Origin: Isoetes taiwanensis
Lineage: Eukaryota; Streptophyta; Lycopodiopsida; Isoetales; Isoetaceae
DNA: 64,000 nt
NCBI GenBank assembly: GCA_021234155.1
Contig: JAJEKV010000065.1
Span: 6,206,446-6,270,445 of the forward strand
Direction: 5' to 3'
Position 1 is the stretch's first letter. Every line of letters begins with the position of its first letter. Below the pieces are notes generated by a model, which was not told where the DNA came from, made no database searches, and saw nothing but the letters and a program-made list of their open reading frames with translations. Shown here one piece after another: positions 10,061-61,424 of this stretch. Made by a program: the position numbers and the translations under genes.

Positions 10061-10574
10061 CAGGCATGTTCACTTCATGGAAGATCACTTGGGATCTGCT
10101 TTCTCCTTCTCCTGCACCTTTACCGGACCTCATTAGTCTTCCAACAATCATCTCCTCGATGACATTGATCAATTTCCGCTGCTGCCCGCGCCTCACTCCT
10201 GCAGTCGTTGCCCTTGGATCATCTCCTTCGCCACATCAGCCTCACGAGAGCACGCTCCTTCTTCAGTTCCACTTGTGGATTCTTCCAAACCTCGGAGATC
10301 TTTCGCTTGGAAGCCCACAGCCAAGATGCTCACATATCACCAAAAGTACGCCTTTCAATGTGCATGATCCCAATCATTCTCGCCACTTACAAGCAAGCTT
10401 CTTTCCGATGTTCATGCGACCCAATGGCATGCCGCAATGGATGAGGAAATGGCAGCTCTCGCAGTAATCGCGTGTGGTCCCTTTTGTGCACTTCTGCAGA
10501 CGGCGACTGTTACTTGAAATGGCTTTACAAGATCAAGATCGCGGCTGATAGATCCCTTTGATCGATTCAAAGCT

Positions 10575-11250
10575 TCGCTTATTTTGCTGTGCATTTCTCG
10601 GGTTGAAGGTGTTGATTTCCATGAGACCTTCTCTCCCGTGGTGAAAATGACTTCCATTCGATTCTTCTTGCTCCAGCGGCGACTCATGATATGGAGATCC
10701 ATCAAATGGGCGTGCAAGCTGCATTCTTATATGGTGATCTTCGGAGGAAGTTTAACACGGCGAAGAAGGCTACATTCAGCCCCGGGCGGGGAGCATTTGT
10801 CTGGAGACTTCACAAGGCCCTGTATGGCTGCTGTGCACCGGGCTTGGTATGAAAAAATGCAACTTCTTACTTCAATTGGGCTTCAAGCAGTGGTTTTGCG
10901 GACACCAACCTTTATGTCCTCAAAGCGGGATGCTGCCTTCCTCTTTTGGGCCTTTACATTGATGATACTATCATCGTCACTAACTCTCTTGCGGTGCTCT
11001 CTCGCATTAAGCAATCTTTGGTCGCCCACTTCATGATGCATGACCTCCAAAAATTTGGGAGTTGCCTTGGCCTGCGCATCACACGAGATCGCTCTCAGAG
11101 CATCCTCTGGGTTGATCAAGAGAAATATAGCCTGGATATTCTCCACAAGTTCAATATGCATGATTTGTCATGGCATCTCCACTCCCATGGACGTTGGTCT
11201 AAAACCGCTTCATCGGCGATTCCCCTACACCCCGGTGACCATGCCGCTAT
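10575..11250 (+). pseudogene. copia reverse transcriptase remnant
   Basis: RT motifs are visible across frames: 'VDFHETFSPVVKMTSIRF' at 10608-10664 (the copia 'D---TFSPV-K--S-R' block), a 'QMGVQAAFLYGDL' block near 10702-10745 in a shifted frame, the catalytic box as 'LYIDDTIIV' near 10950-10978, and 'DLQKFGSCLGLRI' near 11040-11080. The usual YVDD reads YIDD. The frame is broken between blocks. Confidence 0.85.
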
Positions 11251-11369
11251 GGCTCCCATTCCATATCGCAATGCATTAGGTTGCCTCAATTATCTCATGA
11301 TGCACTTTTCCCCGACCTTGGCTTTGTCGCTGATCTCTTGAGGCGCTTCATGGCCAATCTCGGTCTCCC

Positions 11370-11900
11370 TCATTGGCATGCTCTCAAACATGTTTTTGCG
11401 TTATCTTCGAGCCACTGCCCACTTTGGCCTTCAGTTTGGACCTCCTTCCTCTACCCAGGATCTCTTTCTTGGTTACACTGATGCTGACTATGCCGGTGAA
11501 GAGGAGGCCAAATCAACCTCTGGTTATTGTTTTTTCTTCAATGAGGGTATCATCAGCTGGAGCTCCAAGAAGCAACAGGTCACTGCTCAATCCACTATGG
11601 AAGGGGAGTATATTGCTGCCTGCGAGGCAGCCAAAGAAGCTGCTTGGCTTCAGAAAACGACCTTCACCTTCGCCAGAGTCGCCTCTTACTTTATCGTAAC
11701 AGCCAAAGTGCAATTGCCTTGGCTAAAGATCCCAGGTTTCATCCCAAGTCTAAGCATCTCAAAGTGCGGTTTTATTGTCTGAAAGAACAAGTTCATGATG
11801 GTCACCTGGTTATGCCTTCATCAGAACACTCATGACATGGTGGCGCATCTTCTCACTAAGCCTATGCATACTTCCGAATTTCAGCACCATCGCGACTCAA
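11370..11900 (+). pseudogene. copia RNase H remnant
   Basis: A well-preserved stretch reads 'LFLGYTDADYAGEEEAKST', 'SGYCFFFNEG', 'ISWSSKKQQVTAQSTMEGEY' and 'ACEAAKEAAWL'. This is the standard copia RNase H pattern (DADWAG--D-RRSTSGY, then SSKKQ--VA-ST-EAEY). After a frameshift the C-terminus continues with a 'DMVAHLLTKPMHTSEF' segment near 11835-11880, then the polypurine tract and right LTR. Confidence 0.9.
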
Positions 11901-19692: not shown

Positions 19693-20613
19693 GATTTTTT
19701 TTTTTCCTATCTAAGGAAACTTCATTGCCGACCATTCATACCGCAGGTGGAGGCATTTTCATTCTCTTCGGGGATTTTTCTTTTTGTTTAAGATAAAACA
19801 AAGAAGGTATGCTTCCTCCCCCGCTTTAGGTTTAAGCAAGGTGATTTGTTATTGAGGCTTACCTTTGTGAAGATCTTAATTTTTTAGCATTGCATCTAAT
19901 TCTCAATCATACATAGGAGATATTTAAGTTTTCTTTGGTGTTTGGATGACATCATTAGGTATCACAAGCCGGGCGTTGAATTTATGCTCCATTTCGAGTG
20001 CATATTGCATGTACGCATTAAGCACATCTCCGGGTTTACGGCGCGATAGGCAAACCGACCATCATGAATACAAAAGTTAAATTCTCTTTGGCTCTTCATG
20101 GCTTTGCTAGAAGAGTTGGGTTGTTGGCTATGTTTTGTACAAGGAAGCTAGAATACGAGTCCCTTAGTTATACGCAATGATCTCCTCCCTACAGATCTGG
20201 ATGATCCAAGGGTGCCCCAATCCTTCGGTAAGTGTGTTCCATCATAATCTTTACTTTTCTTCTTTTATTGTAGTGAATAGGCCTTTTATCATGATTTTCT
20301 GTTGTAGATATGATGGAGGACCTCATTAGAAGGATGTGCTTCATCCTTGCTACTCCGTGAAGAAGCTATGGTGCTTAGCTAAGTCTCCAGATGTGTTTAT
20401 ATGTTTGAGTTTTGTTAGCTTTGTAGGCACAACCCATGATTAAACTTTCTTCTTGCTCCAAATATAAACAATTATGAGCTTTCATTTTAATTGCTAGAGA
20501 ATAGCATTTGGCATTCAGATGGGCATCCACTTGCTAGCATTCTGTGTGCATAGTATCAGGGCCATGATTTATTGCCTTATTCGTAAGAATGGTTCAGATT
20601 TCGACTACAAAGG

Positions 20614-20725
20614 AAGATTCAATTCTTCACCAGTACTATTGTTTTTTAAAGTTTATACCAACCTAGATCTAGTCTTTTTGCAAGTTCTAACAAGATCCCG
20701 AGTTGCCAGGATTGACAACTCGGTA
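20614..20725 (+). repeat. Diverged copy of the gypsy LTR 3' end
   Basis: Shares 'GGAAGATT-AATTCTTCACCA', 'ACCAACCTAGATCTA' type words and 'ACAAGATCCC-GA' with 17930-18035 in the same order and spacing. It could be the end of a 3' LTR for the element whose Gag is at 18162, which would place the ABCG fragment inside the element. Confidence 0.5.
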
Positions 20726-21706
20726 TGCTTGTCACAATCTCTCTCCCTTGGACATATAGTTGACTTGGGTAAAGCGCAACCCCCATACCCATATGGTGAT
20801 TCCTTGTGATGACGTCTCCAAAAGGCTACGATCATCATACTTATACGATGGGTGCACTTTATAGATTTTGGGAGCGTCACATGAATGAAGGGAATATTTC
20901 TAGACCACGACACAATATCGTCAGACAAGGGTTTTCCTCTTTGGAAAACTCAAATGTTGATTTGACGAATAACAAGTGTATATTGCCTTATTTTGCTTTT
21001 CTTATCTTTGTCTATGCAATTCGACTATAAATTATTAGTAAAATATGAAATCTTTTACCTTTTGTCAAAATGGAATTCACAAAAATAATAGAGTACACAC
21101 ATTCTAATTTCTACATCCACAATTATTATATTGGAACTTACATCTACATATACTAAAATGAACGATCATCTGTGTCTTCAATCCTAGGTGCACATGGTTA
21201 CAAACAAATGTTTCATGCACGTATTATATAGTAACTCAAAAGATGAAGTTCTAGAATAGCAACTTTTCATATTAGCAACATTTGGTAGAAAGCCAAGATT
21301 GCCCGAATTTACATGATGAGAACATACATCGTAGCAAATTCACATGAACATTGAATATTTATGAAACAAAAATGAAGTATAAGGGAAAAACACAGATGAA
21401 CAATAGAAGCTGCCATCCATTATTTTAGCTTCACCCCAACCTTCTTCCTCACCTGCCCCATCCCCAAAAACACCAATTCCATTGACATTTGTCTTGTTTG
21501 TGTGTCTGTGTGTGCACGCGACGCATTGCGTGCTATTTAGCACGCCCTATAGTGCATGTTCCTATGACACAAGTCTGGGCCCCGAAATAAGGTGGATGAA
21601 TTTGGAAAGCAAATCTAGTTATTTGATTTGATTTGATTTATTATCACGCCATATCAAACCCTCGGGTCCATTAGGCGACAAAAAAGAAATACATATAATA
21701 AGTCCA
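20726..21706. other. Intergenic, nothing recognised
   Basis: About 1 kb AT-rich DNA. A short TTTGATTTGATTTGATT microsatellite is near 21613-21640. No coding similarity. Confidence 0.35.
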
Positions 21707-22860
21707 CTAAATGAGGCCTCTTGCCTCCATATCATCTGCTAGACTATTCAAGTCTAAAATCATTTTCCAATGTCCCCACCACGCTTGAAGATAAGCTCCA
21801 AGCCACGTGAGAGGCATCGAAAGTAATAGCGTAAAGCTTCTATACAAAGTAGCATCAATCCCAAAAGCATCATGTACCTCTTCAAATCTAGAGCATTCAA
21901 GGAAAGCATGGTGTTCATCTTCCACAACAGGTTGTCTGCAACATGGCCAAAATCTTAGCTCATGTGGAATGTCATGAACACGTTCTACCTCAGGAGTGAG
22001 ACCGCAACCGAGCTTGGGAAATAAGCCTGTGTTTGTATCCCATCAAAGTATCAAAGTAATCTTGTTCCACATCACCTCCCGTTTGTAATATTCCGTTTTT
22101 GTGCCAAAGGAGATGCCCATAAATGGTGGATAACCTTTTTTTAAACGAGACTACTGAATCCCAGTCTTTGTGTCGGGGAATGTCTAAAATGTCTATCCCC
22201 ATTTGTGAAACCAATCTATAAAAGGCTTGTACCATCCAATATCTGGTTGCCTCGATTGACTCTTGAAGGGCTTGGTGCGGGGGCGATCCTCTTCAAGATG
22301 TTGGACTCTCTGCAAGTACTCAAGTGCCTTCTACGCTTCTAATGGTAGAAAACTGCATCTCTGAAGGAAGCAACATCTCGTAAGGTATTTGCACTTTCAC
22401 CCCAAGTTCTTCCATCAAAATCTTTTCTATATATTTTCAATACTACGCCCATTTCTTTTTTTGACAAACACGGTCCCCAAACCGAACATTAGGTATAGTA
22501 CCACGGGTTGTACCAACATTTTAAACATAAGTTTTCGATACTCCATTTCAGATATGCATATTCCTCCACAAACTTCGATTGTGCCATATAAAGCTCTCAT
22601 TGTTCACGCAGCCCTTTTGTCAACTCACGCATTCCATTTATAGTTGTTTAAACTCCACCCCAAGGTATTTATATTGATGTACTTGCTCCAAGACCTCTCC
22701 ATCAAAGCGCATCCGAATGTTTTCTCTTTTCCCTACAACCATCACTTTTGTTTTCCTTTATTTATCGCCATCCCTTTTTCATTACAAAAAGAACCCAAGA
22801 TGTCTAGGTTTTGTAATCCGGTTATGTTAGCTAGATACGTGATATTGACTTATTAGGGTT
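21707..22860 (-). pseudogene. Non-LTR retrotransposon (LINE) RT C-terminal fragment
   Basis: Read on the minus strand from 22860 downwards. It starts with 'LDILGSFCNEKGMAINKGK', a frameshift, then 'MVVGKRENIRMRFDGEVLEQ' and 'YKYLGVEF', which is the conserved end of LINE reverse transcriptases (motif around K-LGV). Further on come 'RLVSQMGIDILDIPRH' and 'DTLMGYKHRLISQARLRSHS', and a cysteine/histidine cluster 'CCRQPVVEDEHHAFLECSRF' before a stop at 21707. The final cluster resembles the C-terminal zinc knuckle found after LINE RTs. The endonuclease and catalytic RT part are missing, so it is 5'-truncated, as is typical for LINE insertions. Confidence 0.75.
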
Positions 22861-23264
22861 GGATATGAGTGTATGTATAACCTATATGTTGATTGGGCTA
22901 ATGTTCTAGGTTTGCAACTTAAAGATATTGCTATGGGCCCCTTGGAAAATATGCAAGTTTGCTAGTACTTTCATTAGAACAATGTGTTGTTTTATTGGTA
23001 AAATGATATGTTAGAGATGATCAAATCTCAATGTAGAATTCCTAAATGAATTTGCTCTTTCAAATTTATTTTGATGTTGGATATTTCAAATATTAAATTT
23101 AAAGTAAAGAGACAATGGCCATATTTGAGAAAGATTGAAAGTTTGATTGTCATACAATAATGGCGAGATTAAAGATTGGGCAGTATATTGGATAATTCTG
23201 CCACGTAACAATGACACTATTTGGGTTAACGATAATTGTTTTTGGACATTTCCACACCTCTTCC
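22861..23264. other. Intergenic, nothing recognised
   Basis: Short AT-rich stretch between the LINE and the GT-rich tract; no coding or repeat signal seen. Confidence 0.35.
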
Positions 23265-23372
23265 TATTTGGACTCTAGTATAGTGTGTAGTGTGATATGT
23301 GTGGTGTATATCTAGTGAGCATAGTGTATATATGGTATAGTGTATGTAGTGTGTGTGTAATATAGTGTGTGT
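23265..23372 (+). repeat. Degenerate TAGTGTGT / GTGTATAT low-complexity tract
   Basis: About 100 bp dominated by irregular repeats of AGTGTG, GTGTAT and TATAGTGT. It directly precedes the TTCTAGAA-rich array. Confidence 0.75.
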
Positions 23373-23467
23373 GAAAGATTCAAAATTCATTTAGAGGCAT
23401 CTACGAAAGTTGTCATTAGCTTCTACAATTGGTCATGCATCTAAAGTGGCCTAATGGAAGCGTGTAC

Positions 23468-24010
23468 TTCTAGGACATCCTAGAACATGCTAGCACATTC
23501 TAGAACATCTTAGACCATTGTAGAACTTTCTAGAGTAGCGTAGAACTTTATAGGTCTAGAACATTCCAGAACTTTCTAGACCATTATAGAACTTTTTGGA
23601 ACATCCTAAAATAACCTAGAGATTAGGTGGACACCCTAGAGATTAGGCGAACCATTAGCATTCCAGAGAGCCTTAACAATGATTGAGGTGCTTACCCACC
23701 CATGAGCATCTCGAAGATTCAAGATTAGTGTTGAACCGAATTATCCATCCTCATGTCAAAGGCCCCTTTACATACTGGAAAAGGAGCTTCTTTTCTACTC
23801 GAATGCATGTGGGATATTTGTTTATATCCTAACATTCTAGAATATTCAGGAACTTTTTTAGAACAGTCCAGAACTTTCTAAAATATCCTAGAACATCCTA
23901 GAACTCTCTAGAATTGTCAAGAATATTCTAGAACTTTTTAGATGCTATATAATGTTCTAGAAGTTTCTAAAACTTTTTAGAACATGCTAGGCCAGAACAT
24001 TCTCGAGCAC
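23468..24010. repeat. TTCTAGAAC-rich degenerate array in two blocks
   Basis: Two blocks (about 23468-23643 and 23830-24010) consist of irregular copies of CTAGAACATTCTAGAAC-like words with a spacing near 10-12 bp, separated by about 190 bp of ordinary sequence. The unit contains the XbaI-like palindrome TCTAGA. Many copies also match the alternating GAA/TTC layout of heat-shock elements by sequence. Confidence 0.75.
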
Positions 24011-24084
24011 CCTAGAGACATATGTGGACCATTAGCATTTGAGCCAATCTTAACAAGAAAAAAACACACAATTGAAGAAAGAAA

Positions 24085-24310
24085 GTGAGAAGAGTTGGTT
24101 AAGGGGTTTCCTTTCAGATCTCCCTTGCGAGGGTGATGGGGATGGGTGTTCGATTCCTCTCTAATCCAAATATTTTGACTAAAAAGTGGGCCACCGGAGG
24201 GTTGCCAAGAAGCTTCTGGAAGCCACTAGATCCGACGACCGAGAACTGCTGGCTGCTATATAAAGAAGCTTTAAAAAGCCACCAGTAATTATTATTATGC
24301 TAGGATATTA
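24085..24310 (+). mobile_element. tRNA-derived SINE-like element
   Basis: A box A-like AGAGTTGGTTAAGGGG (about 24090-24105) is followed about 40 bp later by a good box B, GTGTTCGATTCCT (about 24146-24158). This is the spacing of an internal Pol III promoter from a tRNA. It does not fold as an intact tRNA gene in my reading. The downstream part up to about 24310 would be the SINE body; its end is not sharply defined. Confidence 0.5.
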
Positions 24311-24634
24311 TTATTATATAAAGAGATATCTTACAATTTCATCAAGAGGCATATTTATATGCTATAGATGGAACTTTCAGATGGTAGAAAATATGTTTAT
24401 ACATTTCACATGTTCTACTGTACAGTGTCGTCATGTTCCTAAGCTTTCAACTTGAATATCCTTACTATCCTCACAACAAATCCATGAGGATAGGATCAAC
24501 ATACATCTTTTGACTCATAGGTGGCAAAATAAGCAGTATATCTACATAGCAAAACTTTGATTGATCTAGATGCATAGTTTTTCTTTCGCCATAGCAACAA
24601 CTATCTAGCCTCCACATAGAATGAAAAGCCTTTA

Positions 24635-24927
24635 TGATATGGTCTATGGGGTATGGGATAAAGCCTTGGAAAGGTTGGGGCCCATTGGATAACGATGTCC
24701 TCGAAGGATTCGCCCTCTTGGTGTGTTGGCTATCACTATAGGTGCTAGTGTGTAACGATGTGTTCCACATGCTTGAGGACAAGCATCTCGAGAAAGGGGG
24801 GGAATTGATATGGTCTATGGGGTATGGGATAAAGCCTTGGAAAGGTTGGGGCCCATTGGATAACGATTTCCTCGAAAAATCCGTCCCTTGGTGTGTTGGC
24901 TATCACTAGAGGTGCTAGTGCGTAACA
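24635..24927 (+). mobile_element. Ultra-short LTR element (SMART-like), 293 bp, with target duplication
   Basis: Two LTRs of about 122 bp (24635 to about 24757 and 24806-24927), both starting TGATATGGTCTATGGGG and ending GTAAC/GTAACA, are roughly 93% identical by eye. Only about 49 bp lie between them. That interior ends in a polypurine tract, GAGAAAGGGGGGG (24791-24803), preceded by GAGGACAAGCATC, a word also found before the tract of the 380-bp element at 7609. The element is flanked by a perfect 5-bp direct repeat, CTTTA (24630-24634 and 24928-24932), the length expected for retroviral-type integration. There is no coding capacity and no readable Met-tRNA primer site. Confidence 0.85.
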
Positions 24928-24943
24928 CTTTATTTGAGTAATA

Positions 24944-25125
24944 GTTGGTTAATGCCTTTGAAGCATTTATGAAGTTTTGATTTATCGCCACTAATAAAGG
25001 TCGATAAACTAATGTTTAAGTCCTAAAAAATACCGTTGGTTAATGCCTTTGAAGCATTTATGAAGTTTTGATTTATCGCCACTAATAAAGGTCGATAAAC
25101 TAATGTTTAAGTCCTAAAAAATACC
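24944..25125 (+). repeat. 91-bp tandem duplication
   Basis: Positions 24944-25034 are repeated at 25035-25125 with no difference that I can find. The unit begins GTTGGTTAATGCC and ends AAAAAATACC. It lies 16 bp downstream of the ultra-short LTR element. Perfect identity implies a recent duplication or assembly duplication. Confidence 0.9.
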
Positions 25126-26800
25126 ATGTACGATCCCTTTTGTTTGTCTGGTCCATTTTAGAAATTGTGGTTATTTTTAAATGCTGGAAAAAAGCATGGT
25201 CTAATTTTTTTTTTTTTTTTGAAAGATGGTCTAAATTTTTGGATGCTGAAAAAAAAAAAAAAAAAAAAAACACCCTTTAAAATCTGATAACAGACTTTCA
25301 TCCTTAGTACTCCTTGCAGGAATACCAAGTCTGCAATTAGCAGCCCTAGGACAACTTACAGGCACAGTTACCTAGGCCAAGACTAGATTCAAGAACTTTA
25401 ATTTTATCATTATATATCATAACTGGAACATGTCAAAATGAACGCATAATGTCAATTTCAAATAACACCTTTGGAATTAGTTTCTGTTTCTAATATTCAG
25501 AATACATGACAGGCTTAAACTAGAATATCAGTTAAGAGTAGACCTGTGTATCCTCTTGATATCAATATTAAATGATTTTCCATATTCAAAACATTAAATA
25601 ACACATAAGTTTCAAGATTGACAATTTGATTCAAGCAGAGACTATATTCTGCTGTAAATATTTCCCATTTTCCTTTTGGAACGTACTTACTTGCTTATTT
25701 GAAGTCTTGTACATCAAATTTGAAAATGTAAAGAAACAATCCATCAAAGCATGGAGCAAGAAACCTGGTTACCTGCAGTAGAACCAAAGGACAGGTTAGC
25801 CTTAATGGGGTAAGAGCCTAAGCTACTAACGGGTAAGCATTAGGTTTCTTGGGTATTCCCTTCACCATGACTTTAATGGTACTAGTGTCATTATGTAGTC
25901 ATTGAAAAACTCAGATTTCGGGACTTATGCACAAAGCAAATTCATATCTTGTCCTAATTACCCAATGACAGATTCTGCCTAGCATGTAGTCATAATTGTC
26001 CGAGCAAATAGTCACAGGGTATTCCCTTACCATGGAGTTATATCTGAAGCCCAACTAAACATTTATACTTACGCGTACACATACATCATTATTGTAAGCA
26101 AGTGTAGTGCAGTCCGTAACCACCTATGCAGTTGTATCAGCCAGCATTTACTGCTTATGCCCACACTCTATGTGGCTTGGATCTATAATTTATTTGTTTA
26201 CCATCTAGTTGTGTCAGTACATAAAAGCCTTATCCCTCATGGTAAGAGTCAGCAACTAAACTTCCAGCTCATATATGGTTCAGTAAATAAGGGATCCAGC
26301 TAATTTCTCCAAGTTTAAAGTTATAATAACCCATTAAATCTTATATGCCAATCAGGATATACCACTGACCAATGCATTATCTCTTCCCAACTTCTTAAAA
26401 GCAAGAAGTCATTACATGTTTTATTCCTGCACAAATTAGCATCTAACATTTGTGCATCTAACAACCATTCCAATGACCTAATCTTCATGCATACATTAGC
26501 AATAACTTGAATAAATTTCATATCAACACTTATTTAGTGAGTAACAGATCCAGCAATCTTTAAACTCAGCATGTAATCACAAAAATACAATGAATATATT
26601 AATTCCCCTATTTCTTGCTACAATCTTCATTTGCCAGATCTATAAGATCTTCATTTGCCAGATCTATAAGAATATTCAAATCGTAAAACCAAAAAGAACC
26701 TGATTATTGTGCGCTCTCGGATAGCTCCAGTTGTCTTGTTGTTATTTTCATTGCCTTCTAACTTCATCTGTCCATAGCATGCCCTCTTAGGATCATTTCT
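25126..26800. other. Intergenic; poly-T and poly-A tracts, small tandem repeat
   Basis: Poly-T at about 25206-25220 and poly-A at about 25251-25270 flank a short segment that starts with related GGTCTAA-TTTT words. A 24-bp tandem duplication containing CATTTGCCAGATCTATAAGA is at about 26626-26673. I see no gene. Confidence 0.4.
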
Positions 26801-28015
26801 TTGGCATGTTTTGGTCAGCTTTTTTCTGCTTCTCGGCGACAATGGCAAAGGCAGATACAACGAATTGCCAAGGGAGATGCCAGATCTTCAAGAGAAAATA
26901 TGGGCCAAATAGAAGAGCGAAATGCAGCAGAACTTGGTTTACCACATGCAACGATCCTCTCGCACAAAGGAATACCTCTTTCTAGTGGAATCCACTTTTG
27001 TCTTATAGCACCGCCATGGCCGTTCATGTTGCACAAACGGCAGCCGGCTGTCCACTATTTGAACGAAAACCTAACTTCGAACCCTAAAATGAGTTCGTCT
27101 AAGGTAAAACGAATTAATATTTTCAGAAAATACAAAGGCAGAATATGCCCTTTTCCCTTTTTTGGGAGATTATCAAGGTAATCCAAAAGTGAAACATAGC
27201 ATACTGCAACTCAAGATTCATACATATACATGGCAAAATAAACATCCCAATATGTTAACATCTATGTAACAAAACCAAGGGGAAAGAAGGCATGACAATT
27301 TTAACAAGGGCTAAAAATATGCCATGCATGTGCATGCAACAAAGCCTTTTAGGCAAATGGCAACTTGCATGTAAGGAGCACATGCTGTTTTCCAAAACGT
27401 GAGCCATAATGCAACCATAAGTCAACTCCAATTTTAGAGTCCAAAAGTGAAATTTCCATATTCCACATGTTAATGTCAACATCAATTTTGTTTAATCAAA
27501 TGACTATTTGTTATTTGCCATATTGCTACAAGAACAACCCTTCAAACAGGCACAACCCTATGGTTTATTCCATGCCTGACAAACTATCATCTATATTTTA
27601 CCATAACATGGCCATTTTTTCAGAGATATCAATTACATGGCACATATGCCTTCATTGCATATTCTGGGATATCATATATTGGCCATTATGTTGGCAACCT
27701 CATGTGCATCATATTTGAGCTAACTATATAATTTCTACTTTAAAAAAAAAAAAAAAAAAAAAACATAGTCTAATTTAAAATCAGCTATATTCTAAACATA
27801 TATAAGGCAGTGGTATTTTTTGTTTGAGGGTAATATTTTTCGCCAACAAAAAACCTGGGAGAGACACGTGGATGCCATATATATTCTAATATATTCAAAA
27901 AGCACTTATTAAAAAAAAGCCAAAGATATCCCCCTCCCGTATCATATCCTAGGGATTTAGATTCCAAATCTTGCCTAAGATTTGGACACAAATTCTAAAA
28001 CGTGCCCAGCATGCA
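26801..28015. other. No recognised gene
   Basis: Open frames of about 70-126 codons overlap on both strands around 26801-27181 but show no family I recognise. A poly-A run is at about 27741-27764. The stretch before 28015 may be promoter sequence of a transcript starting near 28050. Confidence 0.3.
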
Positions 28016-28074: not shown

Positions 28075-29110
28075 AAAAATTTGTGCTGCATCTCTCTGGC
28101 TATGGCGTTCTTTGATCGGGTTTTTTTTATTTTGTGGATGCAATTGTTATTGGATTTCTCAGAAACGAAGGAGAGTTGTATCGGCACATCTGCAAGTCCT
28201 CACTGAAGCACTGCTTTATCACTTTTTATGCCCAACCAAACAGAGTGGAGGGCTTCGGCACCATAGCCGCACTCTTGACTTTCTAGGGTTTTGCCAGTCG
28301 TTGGTTCTTCCTATTTTGCTATAAATGACATCAGCAGGTAAATTTTTGCTTTTAATTTCGATTCATTCGATTTGGAGAGTTCCTGTGTGGTCTATCAGTA
28401 GCAGACCAGCAGTTAGATGTTCTTTCAAGAAAGCTACTGCTTTTGTCTGCGATTTCAATTTTCTGGGAGCTCTCTTTGTGCTTCAAACATTGCTTGGCCA
28501 TCCTGTTCCATCAACAAGAGCCGTAGCCTAGCCCAAGATGCTATAAATTTGGACTGTTGCGGCTTCTGTCATTGTGAAGGCACTAGCTTCATCTGGTTAT
28601 CTGAGAACTGGCGATCGCAAGGCATAGACTTAAATGCAGAATAGAAAAGGTGGCATTTCATCGAGCTTTAGAAGAGCTCCAGTGAATCTTTGTAACGGAT
28701 ATGTTCTTGCCGTAATCTCTATTTTTCATAACCACACCCTTCTTGGCATTCTTGGGATCTAAAATCAAATCGCCATGACCTTTGAGGATGAAGCATAGGG
28801 CTTTTTGATAATAAGATCGATTGATAATAAGAACTTTGTCTTATCGTAAGTTTTTATAGGGATTTTGGTTCTCAATTTGAAACTTTGCGCTACTTGAGGG
28901 ATTGGTACTTTCAAGCACTCACCGTAATAAACTCGTTGTATTATAGGTGTTTTGGGTGTTTCTCCGATCCATGTACCATCAAGCCATTGCTTGGCAACAT
29001 TTATCATTTCATCGTTGATTTTCTCTTGGTGTAACTTACCAAGTATGATATTTATTCATAAATTTAAAGTTTACATAATATGGTTTGTTTGTTGGTTGAA
29101 AATATGTGCA
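28075..29110. other. No recognised gene
   Basis: An 80-codon minus-strand frame at 28765-29007 has a protein-like composition (PKTPIIQRVYYGECLKVPIP) but I do not recognise it. Nothing else is supported. Confidence 0.3.
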
Positions 29111-56562: not shown

Positions 56563-57000
56563 AGAACCTTCGAAGAAGAGATGAGTCCAATGATCAACTA
56601 AACAAAGTATTGATTCCTATTTACCTAAGTCACATCTGAATTGGGGAGGTAGACACATCCTCAGAAGATTTGAAAGAAGGGTGGTTGCTTAAAACTAGCA
56701 GGCATTGAGGAAGTTTATAACACTATTAGTAACATTCGTAAGGCATATGCTCCTCCTCCTTCTGACCAACACTATGTTAGTCCTAGGAAAGATAGACCAA
56801 AATATCTAGGCATAGAAGGTTATGAACCTTCTAGTGACTTCTAGTGCCACCAATTGTGGTAGTAAGACCATCAAAGATAGAGAACTATTCAATGTGGTTG
56901 GGATACACCATCTCTGATATTTGCAAAGAAGATGGTAATATTAACCTCAATAGTGTGCATGTGGTGTCCAGTGCATCAATTTACTAATGTTTTGAATAAA

Positions 57001-57435
57001 GAAAGATGATGGAAATTTGTATAGGTTCAGAAATGGAGAAGAATGGTGCATTATAGCATTATATGTGGATGATAATATCATGGTGGCAAAGGGCACAAAA
57101 ACCTTGCTTAAATGCAAAGAGATTCTAAATAAAAAGTTTCAAATGTCTGACCTTGGTGAGTTAAAAAGATTCTTGGGGATTGAAGTGTTCAGAAATAGAG
57201 ATAACATAATTTTAGCTTTAAGCCAGCAAACTCATATTCAGAATATGTTGAGCAGGTTTGGTATGATAGATTGCAATGTAGCAAGTACACCTATTGTACC
57301 TGGCCACAAAATTTTGAGGAAGATGTGTCCTCAAACAGTAGATGAACAGAAACAAATGGAAAAAGTACCATACAGATCATTAATAGGGTGTTTATCATAT
57401 GTTGCAAATTGCACGAGACCTGACATACTAGAGCC
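57001..57435 (+). pseudogene. Ty1/copia reverse transcriptase fragment, open frame
   Basis: About 145 codons without a stop. Motifs in order: KKDDGNLYRFRNGEEW, the catalytic box LYVDDNIMVA, FQMSDLGELKRFLGIEV, NMLSRFGMIDCNVASTP and YRSLIGCLSYVANCTRPDIL, where similarity stops. It is the second half of RT only; integrase and RNase H are absent. The frame opens within the element, so no true start is expected. It is better preserved than the 6.4-12.2 kb element and belongs to a different copia lineage. Confidence 0.9.
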
Positions 57436-57923
57436 AAAACCATGGTGAAAAGCCAAGATTTGGAACAAATAGTAGGGCACTTGCACATGGATCCCAGCTT
57501 TGAGCTCGAAGCAGATGCCTATGGCGGCAGATTCAATGCATGAGGGGGCACCTTTCTTGGCACTTAGGGCTCTTATCTTTCAAAGGACAAAAGACAGAAA
57601 CATTGTAATTGATTTGTTCTACCCCAACATTCAGAGACAATGGCGACGACACTTCACATAGAAAATTCAGTGCTAGGATTCCTTATCGATAACCTGGATA
57701 TTTCGGAAAGGAACAAAGCAAGATTGCAAATGCAGACATTTGAGGAAGGAGATGTGAGGATTCAAAGAGGTTCTAATAAGCAATCATTGTTCAGGTATAG
57801 AAAGCTTACTTTAAGAAAGTATAAGAATTCGTACTTCAGTGTGTTGTTGCATGTAGATGTTGATGCTACAATGATATTCTTCGATTATTGTAAAGATGCA
57901 TACTTTATGATCCTGCTATAAAC
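57436..57923. other. Unrecognised open frame region
   Basis: A 93-codon + frame from ATG 57640 reads MATTLHIENSVLGFLIDNLD and so on, with no family I know. It might be the 5' end of another retroelement Gag, but I cannot support that. Confidence 0.25.
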
Positions 57924-59115: not shown

Positions 59116-59258
59116 CAACATTAGACATCTTGGTTGGCCATAGTGGCACGGCACATATTTTGCAGCAGGCTCGTAATGCTTTAACAACATAAGCAAACAA
59201 AAATCGCTCTTCATAACTTTTACATTTTCCTTCTCAAGCATTATAGGGTTCCATCGCC

Positions 59259-61424
59259 ATGGTGAGAAAGGGCGGCGAGGCAGCTCCAGCCAAGGGGAAA
59301 TCCGGTAGTACGAAGACGAAGGAGCCTGTCAAGGAGCCCCGTCTCTCCGTGTCTGCTTTCCTTGCTGCTGCTGATAAGAAGCCAGATAAACCACCTTCGA
59401 ATCCAAAGAGCAAAGGTAAGGGCAAGGTTGTTGATTCATATACTTCTGGAATTGATTTGCCTCCCTCGGACGACGAGGAAATTGATGGAGAAAAATTGGG
59501 AAGTGGTGATGAGGAAGAGAAGGTGTCTAGAAGAAAGGGTAGCGGAATGGCTTTGGATCTATCAGTTTCTGAACGTGCCCAGAAAAAGAAGGAGAAGAAG
59601 GAAACCATTTTAGCCCAAGCTTCCCAATTTGCCAAACAGGAGGTTTTAAAGGAAGATGAGCGGAGTGCTTTTACAGTTGTGATAGGATCCAGGGCCTCTG
59701 TGCTGGAGGATGACAGCAGTGCTGATGCTAACATAAAGGATATCACCATTGATAGCTTCTCTGTGTCTGCCCGTGGCAAAGAGCTCTTGAAAAATGCTTC
59801 CTTAAAGATTGCATATGGCAGAAGATATGGTCTTGTTGGTCCCAATGGCAAGGGCAAATCAACCTTACTCAAGCTGCTAGCTTGGAGACAGCTTCCAGTG
59901 CCAAAGAATACTGATGTGTTGCTGGTAGAGCAGGAAGTTGTGGGAGATGATAGATCTGCATTGGATGCAGTGGTAGCTGCGGACCAGGAGTTGATTCGCC
60001 TTAGGGAAGAAGCAAGTAGGTTACAGAAATTGAGTCTTGAAGAGAATGATGCAGAGGAAGATGAATCCTTGAGCACTGCCGATAAGCTTACTGAGGTGTA
60101 TGAGAAACTTGAGGCCATGGGTTCTAATGCTGCTGAAGCTAATGCTTCTAAAATATTGGCAGGGTTAGGTTTCACAAAGGACATGCAGGTTCGAGCTACC
60201 AAGTCATTCAGTGGAGGATGGAGAATGAGAATTTCATTGGCAAGGGCACTGTTTGTAAAGCCAACGTTGCTGCTTCTTGACGAGCCGACAAATCACCTGG
60301 ACCTAAGGGCTGTTTTGTGGTTGGAAGAATATCTTATGAGATGGAAGAAAACTTTGGTTGTAGTTTCTCATGATCGAGATTTTTTGAATTCTGTGTGTAC
60401 TGACATTATCCATCTTCATGATGAGAAGCTGCATTATTATAGGGGTAATTTTGACACCTTTGAAGAATCATACGAGCAGAAAAGGAGGGAGAATAATAAA
60501 AAATTTGAGCTTTATGATAAGCAACTGAAGGCTGCAAAGCGCAGCGGGAACAAGGCTCAACAGGATAAAGTCAAGGATCGAGCAAAATTTGTTGCTGGAA
60601 AAGAGGCAAAAGCTAAAGCTAAAACTAAAGCAGGTGCAGGGGATGAAGAGGAAGTGGCTCCAGAGGCACCTCATAAGTGGAGAGATTATAGTGTTGAATT
60701 TCACTTTCCAGAGCCTACAGAACTCACTCCACCTTTACTTCAACTCATTGATGTCGAGTTTAGCTATCCTGGAAGGACAGATTTTGCTCTTAAAGATGTT
60801 GATGTGGGCATAGATATGGGAACTCGTGTTGCCATTGTTGGGCCTAATGGAGCAGGCAAGTCCACTCTTTTAAATCTTCTTGCTGGAGATTTGCAGCCAG
60901 TACGTGGTGAGGTAAGGAGAAGTCAGAAATTGAGAATCGGGAGATACTCTCAGCACTTTGTAGATTTATTGACTATGGACGAGACCCCGGTTCAGTATTT
61001 GCTAAGACTTCATCCCGAGCAGGAAGGTCTCAGCAAGCAAGAAGCTGTGAGGGCAAAGCTAGGCAAATTTGGACTTCCCAGCCACAATCATCTGACACCA
61101 ATTGTGAAACTTTCTGGTGGACAGAAGGCAAGGGTAGTGTTTACTTCAATTTCAATGTCTCGGCCGCATATTCTTCTTCTTGATGAACCCACAAATCACT
61201 TGGACATGCAGAGTATTGATGCCCTTGCAGATGCATTGGATGAGTTTACTGGCGGTGTTGTGCTTGTGAGTCATGATTCCAGATTGATATCAAGGGTCTG
61301 TGAAAATCAGGAGACCAGTGAGATATGGGTTGTTGAAAACGGGACTGTTAGAAAGCATCCTGGATACTTTGAAGATTACAAGGCAGAACTAATAAAAGAG
61401 ATTGTGGCTGAAGTGGAAGAGTAG
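59259..61424 (+). CDS. ABCF4: ABCF4 / GCN4-type ABC-F protein
   Basis: A soluble ABC-F ATPase with two nucleotide-binding domains and no membrane segment. By family it belongs with GCN20-like proteins linked to ribosomes and translation control; the Arabidopsis homologue GCN4/ABCF4 has also been tied to stomatal defence. Its 721 residues match the family length. The Lys/acidic N-terminal extension (about 1-135) includes GIDLPPSDDEE. Domain 1 has Walker A GPNGKGKST (194-202), signature FSGGW (317-321) and Walker B LLLLDEPTNHLD with D341/E342. A charged linker with the ABC_tran_Xtn helix follows. Domain 2 has GPNGAGKST (528-536), LSGGQ (618-622), D642/E643 and the SHD switch. The ATG has a good context (CGCCATGG) and an in-frame TAG ends the gene. 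There are no introns. All catalytic motifs are intact. Confidence 0.97.
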   Translation: MVRKGGEAAPAKGKSGSTKTKEPVKEPRLSVSAFLAAADKKPDKPPSNPKSKGKGKVVDSYTSGIDLPPSDDEEIDGEKLGSGDEEEKVSRRKGSGMALDLSVSERAQKKKEKKETILAQASQFAKQEVLKEDERSAFTVVIGSRASVLEDDSSADANIKDITIDSFSVSARGKELLKNASLKIAYGRRYGLVGPNGKGKSTLLKLLAWRQLPVPKNTDVLLVEQEVVGDDRSALDAVVAADQELIRLREEASRLQKLSLEENDAEEDESLSTADKLTEVYEKLEAMGSNAAEANASKILAGLGFTKDMQVRATKSFSGGWRMRISLARALFVKPTLLLLDEPTNHLDLRAVLWLEEYLMRWKKTLVVVSHDRDFLNSVCTDIIHLHDEKLHYYRGNFDTFEESYEQKRRENNKKFELYDKQLKAAKRSGNKAQQDKVKDRAKFVAGKEAKAKAKTKAGAGDEEEVAPEAPHKWRDYSVEFHFPEPTELTPPLLQLIDVEFSYPGRTDFALKDVDVGIDMGTRVAIVGPNGAGKSTLLNLLAGDLQPVRGEVRRSQKLRIGRYSQHFVDLLTMDETPVQYLLRLHPEQEGLSKQEAVRAKLGKFGLPSHNHLTPIVKLSGGQKARVVFTSISMSRPHILLLDEPTNHLDMQSIDALADALDEFTGGVVLVSHDSRLISRVCENQETSEIWVVENGTVRKHPGYFEDYKAELIKEIVAEVEE

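Follow-up and report, generated by a model that had tools for sequence, protein, structure and literature searches.

A miniature LTR retrotransposon family in the lycophyte Isoetes taiwanensis and a copy that has probably lost its primer-binding site

We report a family of non-autonomous miniature LTR retrotransposons (TRIMs) in the genome of Isoetes taiwanensis, one copy of which lies in a 64,000-nucleotide stretch of contig C1073 (the window). This copy is very probably an old member from which about 42 bp, including the primer-binding site (PBS), were lost after its arrival. The window copy is without a primer site because these ~42 bp were deleted, and the absence is thus the decay of one copy, for which no special explanation is needed.

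The window element is 293 bp long (24635-24927) and consists of two direct repeats around 48 bp, or 49 bp when the final A of the LTR is taken as lost (Table 1). The repeats start with TGATATGG, end with TAAC(G/A), and differ by 8 substitutions and 1 gap over 122 aligned positions (blastn E 1.5e-48). An initial annotation of this DNA had described a 293-bp LTR element, with LTRs of about 122 bp on either side of about 49 bp and a perfect CTTTA duplication at its flanks, and the repeats and flanks were found exactly where it had placed them. Its description of the interior as mostly polypurine was inaccurate, the interior holding a hairpin followed by a polypurine tract. The last internal codons read VFHMLEDKHLEKGGELIW, and the sequence across the deletion junction is GTGTAACGATGTGTTCCACATGCTTGAGG. 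No further copy was found elsewhere in the window by blastn. An Rfam scan of the window at the gathering threshold revealed no RNA family, and a search of the plasmid collection gave no match. A perfect 91-bp x 2 tandem repeat (24944-25125), unrelated to the element in sequence, follows directly after it, and is also present with ~99% identity in the partner region on contig C941 described below.

Table 1. Features of the window element (positions in the window)
Feature	Position	Strand	Remark
5' target-site duplication CTTTA	24630..24634	.	perfect
5' LTR (TGATATGG...TAACG)	24635..24757	+	last base A missing or changed relative to other copies
Deletion junction GTAAC/GATGTG	24757..24758	+	~42 bp of usual members absent, including primer-binding site TGGTATCAGAGCC
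Leftover internal region, 48 bp	24758..24805	+	between the two LTRs
Hairpin ATGCTTG-AGGA-CAAGCAT	24769..24786	+	in the internal region
Polypurine tract GAGAAAGGGGGGGAAT	24790..24805	+	directly before the 3' LTR
3' LTR (TGATATGG...TAACA)	24806..24927	+	keeps the final A
3' target-site duplication CTTTA	24928..24932	.	perfect

The genome searched comprises 1.658 Gb in 1,110 contigs. A search with the LTR, as proposed in the initial annotation, showed the element to be multi-copy: the first 31 LTR bases, with up to three mismatches allowed, gave 545 + 530 = 1,075 LTR starts genome-wide on many contigs, and the same pattern read backwards, used as a control, gave 0 + 0. With the window element as query, 51 matching places were found in its own genome (40 scored of 1,144 first-look candidates). 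As this query lacks the PBS, the family sample drawn from the 40 scored candidates leans to PBS-less copies. Around the genome matches 38 stretches were taken, and 30 rows were tabulated, representing the window and 29 of these stretches. Nine stretches (L013, L021, L027, L035, L037, L041, L043, L045 and L046) were treated apart as arrays, pairs, truncated or chimeric copies. A 23-row set of copies with both ends set was obtained by dropping L032, L036, L038, L039 and L040 (end truncated or unclear, none with a perfect duplication), L042 (deleted 5' LTR, with TTTAG flanking both ends) and L044 (chimera; GAGTC/TAGTC). Within this set the 5' ends of L024 and L031 were set by extrapolation, and L019 was unparsed, leaving 22 parsed copies.

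A perfect 5-bp target duplication was found in 17 of these 23 copies (15 of 21 once the duplicated loci L009 and L014 are removed) and in 18 of the 30 rows overall. It was absent from the remaining 6 of 23 and 12 of 30; L022 has identical LTRs yet no target duplication. The LTR pairs are identical in 7 of the 22 parsed copies (L012, L015, L016, L022, L025, L026 and L029). Because 5-bp duplications are frequent and these seven copies have identical LTRs, the family has been mobile recently.

Four loci (L021, L027, L035 and L037) carry runs of three or four LTRs, of which some are truncated, and such tandem arrays, together with the unrelated 91-bp tandem pair adjoining the window element, could speak for an origin of the two repeats by local tandem or satellite duplication rather than by retrotransposition. 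However, the perfect duplications in the 17 copies are specific to each locus, the copies are dispersed over many contigs, and duplications read by eye also flank two whole arrays (GAGAA at L027, GCAAC at L037; no perfect duplication at L021 and L035) and the chimera L043 (CAACG). Local duplication is thus highly improbable, and a satellite origin was rejected. The initial annotation had itself raised a single genomic copy, or a longer tandem satellite without target duplications, as grounds for doubt; neither was found, though some copies do stand in short tandem arrays.

The usual member of the family is ~334 bp long (333-336 bp), with a 122-bp LTR, a 90-bp internal part and a second 122-bp LTR. 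The internal part measures 89-90 bp in 18 of the 22 parsed copies, so that 293 bp, which had been put forward as the size of the mobile element, is not its usual size. In the other four it measures 46-48 bp, and these represent two deletion events, each at two duplicated loci (window/L009 and L010/L014). In a listing of 100 exact LTR starts, the intact spacing of 211-213 bp occurs in 15 same-strand pairs, one pair is 169 bp apart and corresponds to the C941 duplicate, and six other pairings have other spacings. The intact 90-bp internal part opens with TTTGGTATCAGAGCCAAGGTTCAATTCC, continues with the hairpin ATGCTTGAGGGCAAGCAT and closes with a purine stretch such as GGAAGGGGAGGAAT abutting the 3' LTR. 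A purine-rich stretch stands at the position equivalent to GAGAAAGGGGGGGAAT in the copies compared. The customary plant primer site is TGGTATCAGAGC, which is complementary to the initiator-Met tRNA. The usual internal part opens with TGGTATCAGAGCC or a close variant, which, from the match in motif, we take to be this usual site. The statement in the initial annotation that no primer site could be read therefore holds for the window copy, and the question it left open, how the element is primed, does not extend to the family.

The PBS was surveyed in the sequence upstream of internal 3'-half matches in L006 and L009-L046, with the window not counted. The 46 internal matches represent 45 distinct places, one place on contig C73 being contained in both L006 and L013. 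The 13-base motif TGGTATCAGAGCC is exact in 30 of 46, has one or two mismatches in 8, and is damaged or missing in 8. It has been lost at the window junction in L009, and through a site cut short internally in L010 and L014. At two places on C73 the LTR end and the PBS are deleted, with the same junction in both (a duplicated locus) that differs from the junction of the window. L031 has lost one base of the site, L045 is rearranged, and the site is damaged or missing in one unit of the array L021. An exact hairpin motif, its loop reading AGGA or AGGG, is present in 38 of the 46 internal matches (one place counted twice). The intact internal part of L012 folds at -31.9 kcal/mol (shuffle mean -23.6, z -2.5, 2 of 200 shuffles as good), and the internal remnant of the window element gave a z of -1.2, with 26 of 200 shuffles as good.

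Set against other members, L029 for example, the window copy lacks ~42 bp, beginning with the last LTR base and stopping immediately ahead of GATGTGTTCC. In the members L029, L030 and L043 the missing segment has the motif AACATT close to either end, and the deletion would therefore fit a microhomology-type loss, with three further bases lost. Among the 45 internal places examined, the window junction recurs only in L009 on C941, where CTTTA and the flanks agree as well. This agreement reflects a partner of the whole region on C941: window positions 8500-61319 are largely collinear with C941:11400000-11459999, at ~88-97% identity in alignments longer than 300 bp. The partner region may be a homeologue or a divergent haplotype. 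With a collinear region and the same junction, one insertion and one deletion would therefore have preceded the split between the two. LTR divergence (K) is 0.069 in the window copy and 0.118 in L009, far above that of young copies, and the window copy is old and decayed. The second short form, L010/L014, has another junction and represents one duplicated locus (97% over 1.1 kb); its loss of the PBS is, judging from these junctions, independent of that in the window. Along the collinear region, identity is locally higher (97%) around 20579-25270. For the adjoining ~2.6 kb (25271-27933), which has a run of A near its left edge, the C941 partner region offers no long match, though one alignment resumes at 27742.

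One might also consider a mobile subfamily of the 293-bp form that dispenses with a tRNA site and is primed in another way, such as self-priming or priming through the hairpin. The same short form with a target duplication occurs at two loci, the PBS is damaged or missing in 8 of 46 internal matches, and the accessible text of one report describes bivalve TRIMs without a recognisable PBS and self-priming Tf1-type elements (PMC6934838). However, the window copy and L009 represent one insertion, as seen from the shared flanks and CTTTA in a collinear region, and the remaining PBS losses have other junctions. Moreover, the LTR divergence of both is high, unlike that of the young PBS-bearing copies, and the final A absent from the 5' LTR is retained in the 3' LTR, which fits a loss after integration. 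Judging from the copies examined, we consider such a subfamily improbable and rejected it. Since the junction occurs only at the duplicate, the LTRs are old and the 211-213-bp spacing prevails, there is no sign of movement by the short PBS-less form in the copies examined. Deletion from a normally inserted copy remains the preferred reading.

Other LTR elements were found joined to members of the family. L043 contains a 1,087-bp insertion whose middle LTR is joined to part of an element here called X, this part being partly inverted relative to the usual order of X, and in L044 (866 bp) the TRIM is combined with a third element. In L054, element X has an LTR of ~758 bp starting with TGATATGG, a polypurine end GGGAAGAAT, a primer region TTGGTATCAGAGCCAAG / ATTGGTATCAGAGCCAAG and an internal part of ~1,077 bp whose open frames do not exceed 66 codons. 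X (L054 and others) is LARD-like, and resembles the TRIM family in LTR start, polypurine end and primer region. By blast against a TRIM copy, 17/17 bases are shared at the primer site and 16/17 at the polypurine/LTR start, and beyond the ends there are only 10-base matches at chance level. Five TRIM copies near X pieces (L071, L074, L077, L081 and L082) all retain the primer site, with one substitution in L071, and none has a perfect duplication; L074 and L077 share flanks. The arrays and chimeras look like the outcome of template switching between co-packaged RNAs.

The TRIM family, X and further LTR elements may perhaps form one exchange community, repeatedly joined by reverse transcription of co-packaged RNAs, although we hold this reading only tentatively and with the balance somewhat against it. 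In this reading the primer site is common to all, the LTR and polypurine ends are common to the TRIM and X, and elsewhere the elements differ; joined examples are the TRIM-X combination in L043, with CAACG on both sides, and the TRIM-third element combination in L044. If such a community exists, the cis signals for trans-mobilisation would be the parts kept by all members.

Several further arrangements were observed among these elements. At G000:C963:17646419-17654620, five X-fragment copies are spaced 1,945-1,972 bp apart, in the manner of a tandem array of LTR-internal units, and a further pair with this spacing is present on C1100. TRIM pieces that keep the internal region and the 3' LTR and lack the 5' LTR occur in L041 (4794-5003), L045 (4776-4990) and L046 (4647-4864), their joins lying at primer sites or close to them. 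The order in L041 is internal part, LTR and a piece of the primer site, bracketed by TCATATCTTCA repeats, and this locus is possibly an integrated circle; in L045 the sequence is rearranged about primer sites in opposite orientation. Two head-to-head TRIM pairs, one duplicating the other, lie on C73 (G000:C73:172675-173312 and 181717-182358), and in each the minus-strand copy is without the LTR end and primer site, at a junction that differs from that of the window. Ty3 gag frames with Pfam gag matches occur near the TRIM in L043 (6200-9301) and L045 (5297-6202), with no shown link to the TRIM.

Other features of the window include a gene for an ABCF transporter at 59256-61421. Among the best 120 of 7,991 matches, its closest is from Diphasiastrum complanatum (79%), followed by the fern Ceratopteris and the lycophyte Selaginella (75%). 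A tRNA-Ser gene with anticodon AGA (28633-28724; ARAGORN) is the sole tRNA in the window, and open frames at 10518-11782 and 56996-57448 resemble, by eye, pieces of copia-type reverse transcriptase/RNase H.

The family is apparently a new one of the known TRIM kind, and not grass SMART, from which it was told by description. The consulted portion of a survey of plant TRIMs (PMC4717578) gives 289 subfamilies with a mean length of 685 bp, 8 of them in the lycophyte Selaginella, and reports tandem arrays of LTR-internal units. The family resembles the TRIMs described there in being shorter than 1 kb and non-coding, with short LTRs, a PBS, a short internal part and a polypurine tract, in its 5-bp duplications and tandem LTR-internal arrays, and in having a lycophyte host, and differs from the average in its ~334 bp, near the small end. 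Terminal repeats of 100-250 bp in a total of <1 kb correspond here to 122-bp repeats in 293 bp (usually ~334 bp), and the 4-6 bp target duplication to CTTTA in the window and to the duplications of 17 of 23 copies. A putative PBS stands directly after the 5' LTR in the family (at most two mismatches in 38 of 46), and not in the window copy or L009. The polypurine tract (GAGAAAGGGGGGGAAT in the window) directly precedes the 3' LTR. Coding capacity is lacking, because 46-90 bp leaves no room for a retrotransposon protein, and the 1,075 LTR starts on many contigs reflect a dispersed multi-copy nature.

The initial annotation had compared the element with grass SMART elements of similar size. The comparison is correct for total length (293 vs 292 bp), and SMART (FRetro129) is also alike in its 5-bp duplication and very short LTRs, which could suggest membership. 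However, as described in the accessible part of PMC3281118, SMART is on record only for grasses and has LTRs of 85 bp (here 122), an internal part of 122 bp (here 90) and ends of TGT...ACA (here TGATATGG...TAACA), the two having been compared by description; furthermore, the ABCF protein of the host points to a lycophyte. Membership in SMART is hardly credible and was rejected. Cassandra, in the portion of PMC7215508 consulted, is likewise a small non-coding LTR element with tandem arrays and with the TGGTATCAGAGC motif, which is contained in the Cassandra search formula, and differs in carrying 5S rRNA sequence in its LTRs; such sequence was not found here, the window having no Rfam match. 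In the open-access literature on lycophyte TRIMs and Diphasiastrum retrotransposons, as far as its accessible text goes, such a family was not found.

From these features, the life cycle of the family may be proposed as follows. Intact members would be transcribed from their own LTR, and a larger LTR retrotransposon would provide, in trans, the proteins that package and copy the RNA; chimeras of the TRIM with other LTR elements were seen, and no gag-pol element was shown with the same LTR. The first strand would be primed by the initiator-Met tRNA at TGGTATCAGAGCC, going by the motif, the second strand at the polypurine tract, and integration would take place via a 5-bp staggered cut. The window copy would have been inserted as a normal ~334-bp element and would afterwards have lost ~42 bp between the end of the 5' LTR and the second AACATT motif. 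This loss would be older than the duplication of the region onto the C941 chromosome, or its divergence from it. The window copy should no longer move by tRNA priming.

The window copy is thus ordinary, and shows that a single PBS-less copy can mislead unless the whole family is viewed. Lycophyte TRIMs are on record for Selaginella in the portion of PMC4717578 consulted, and a recently mobile ~334-bp lycophyte family is now added. Its 90-bp internal part is nearly all signal, comprising the primer site, hairpin and polypurine tract, and the family therefore offers a compact natural test of the sequences that are sufficient for trans-mobilisation.
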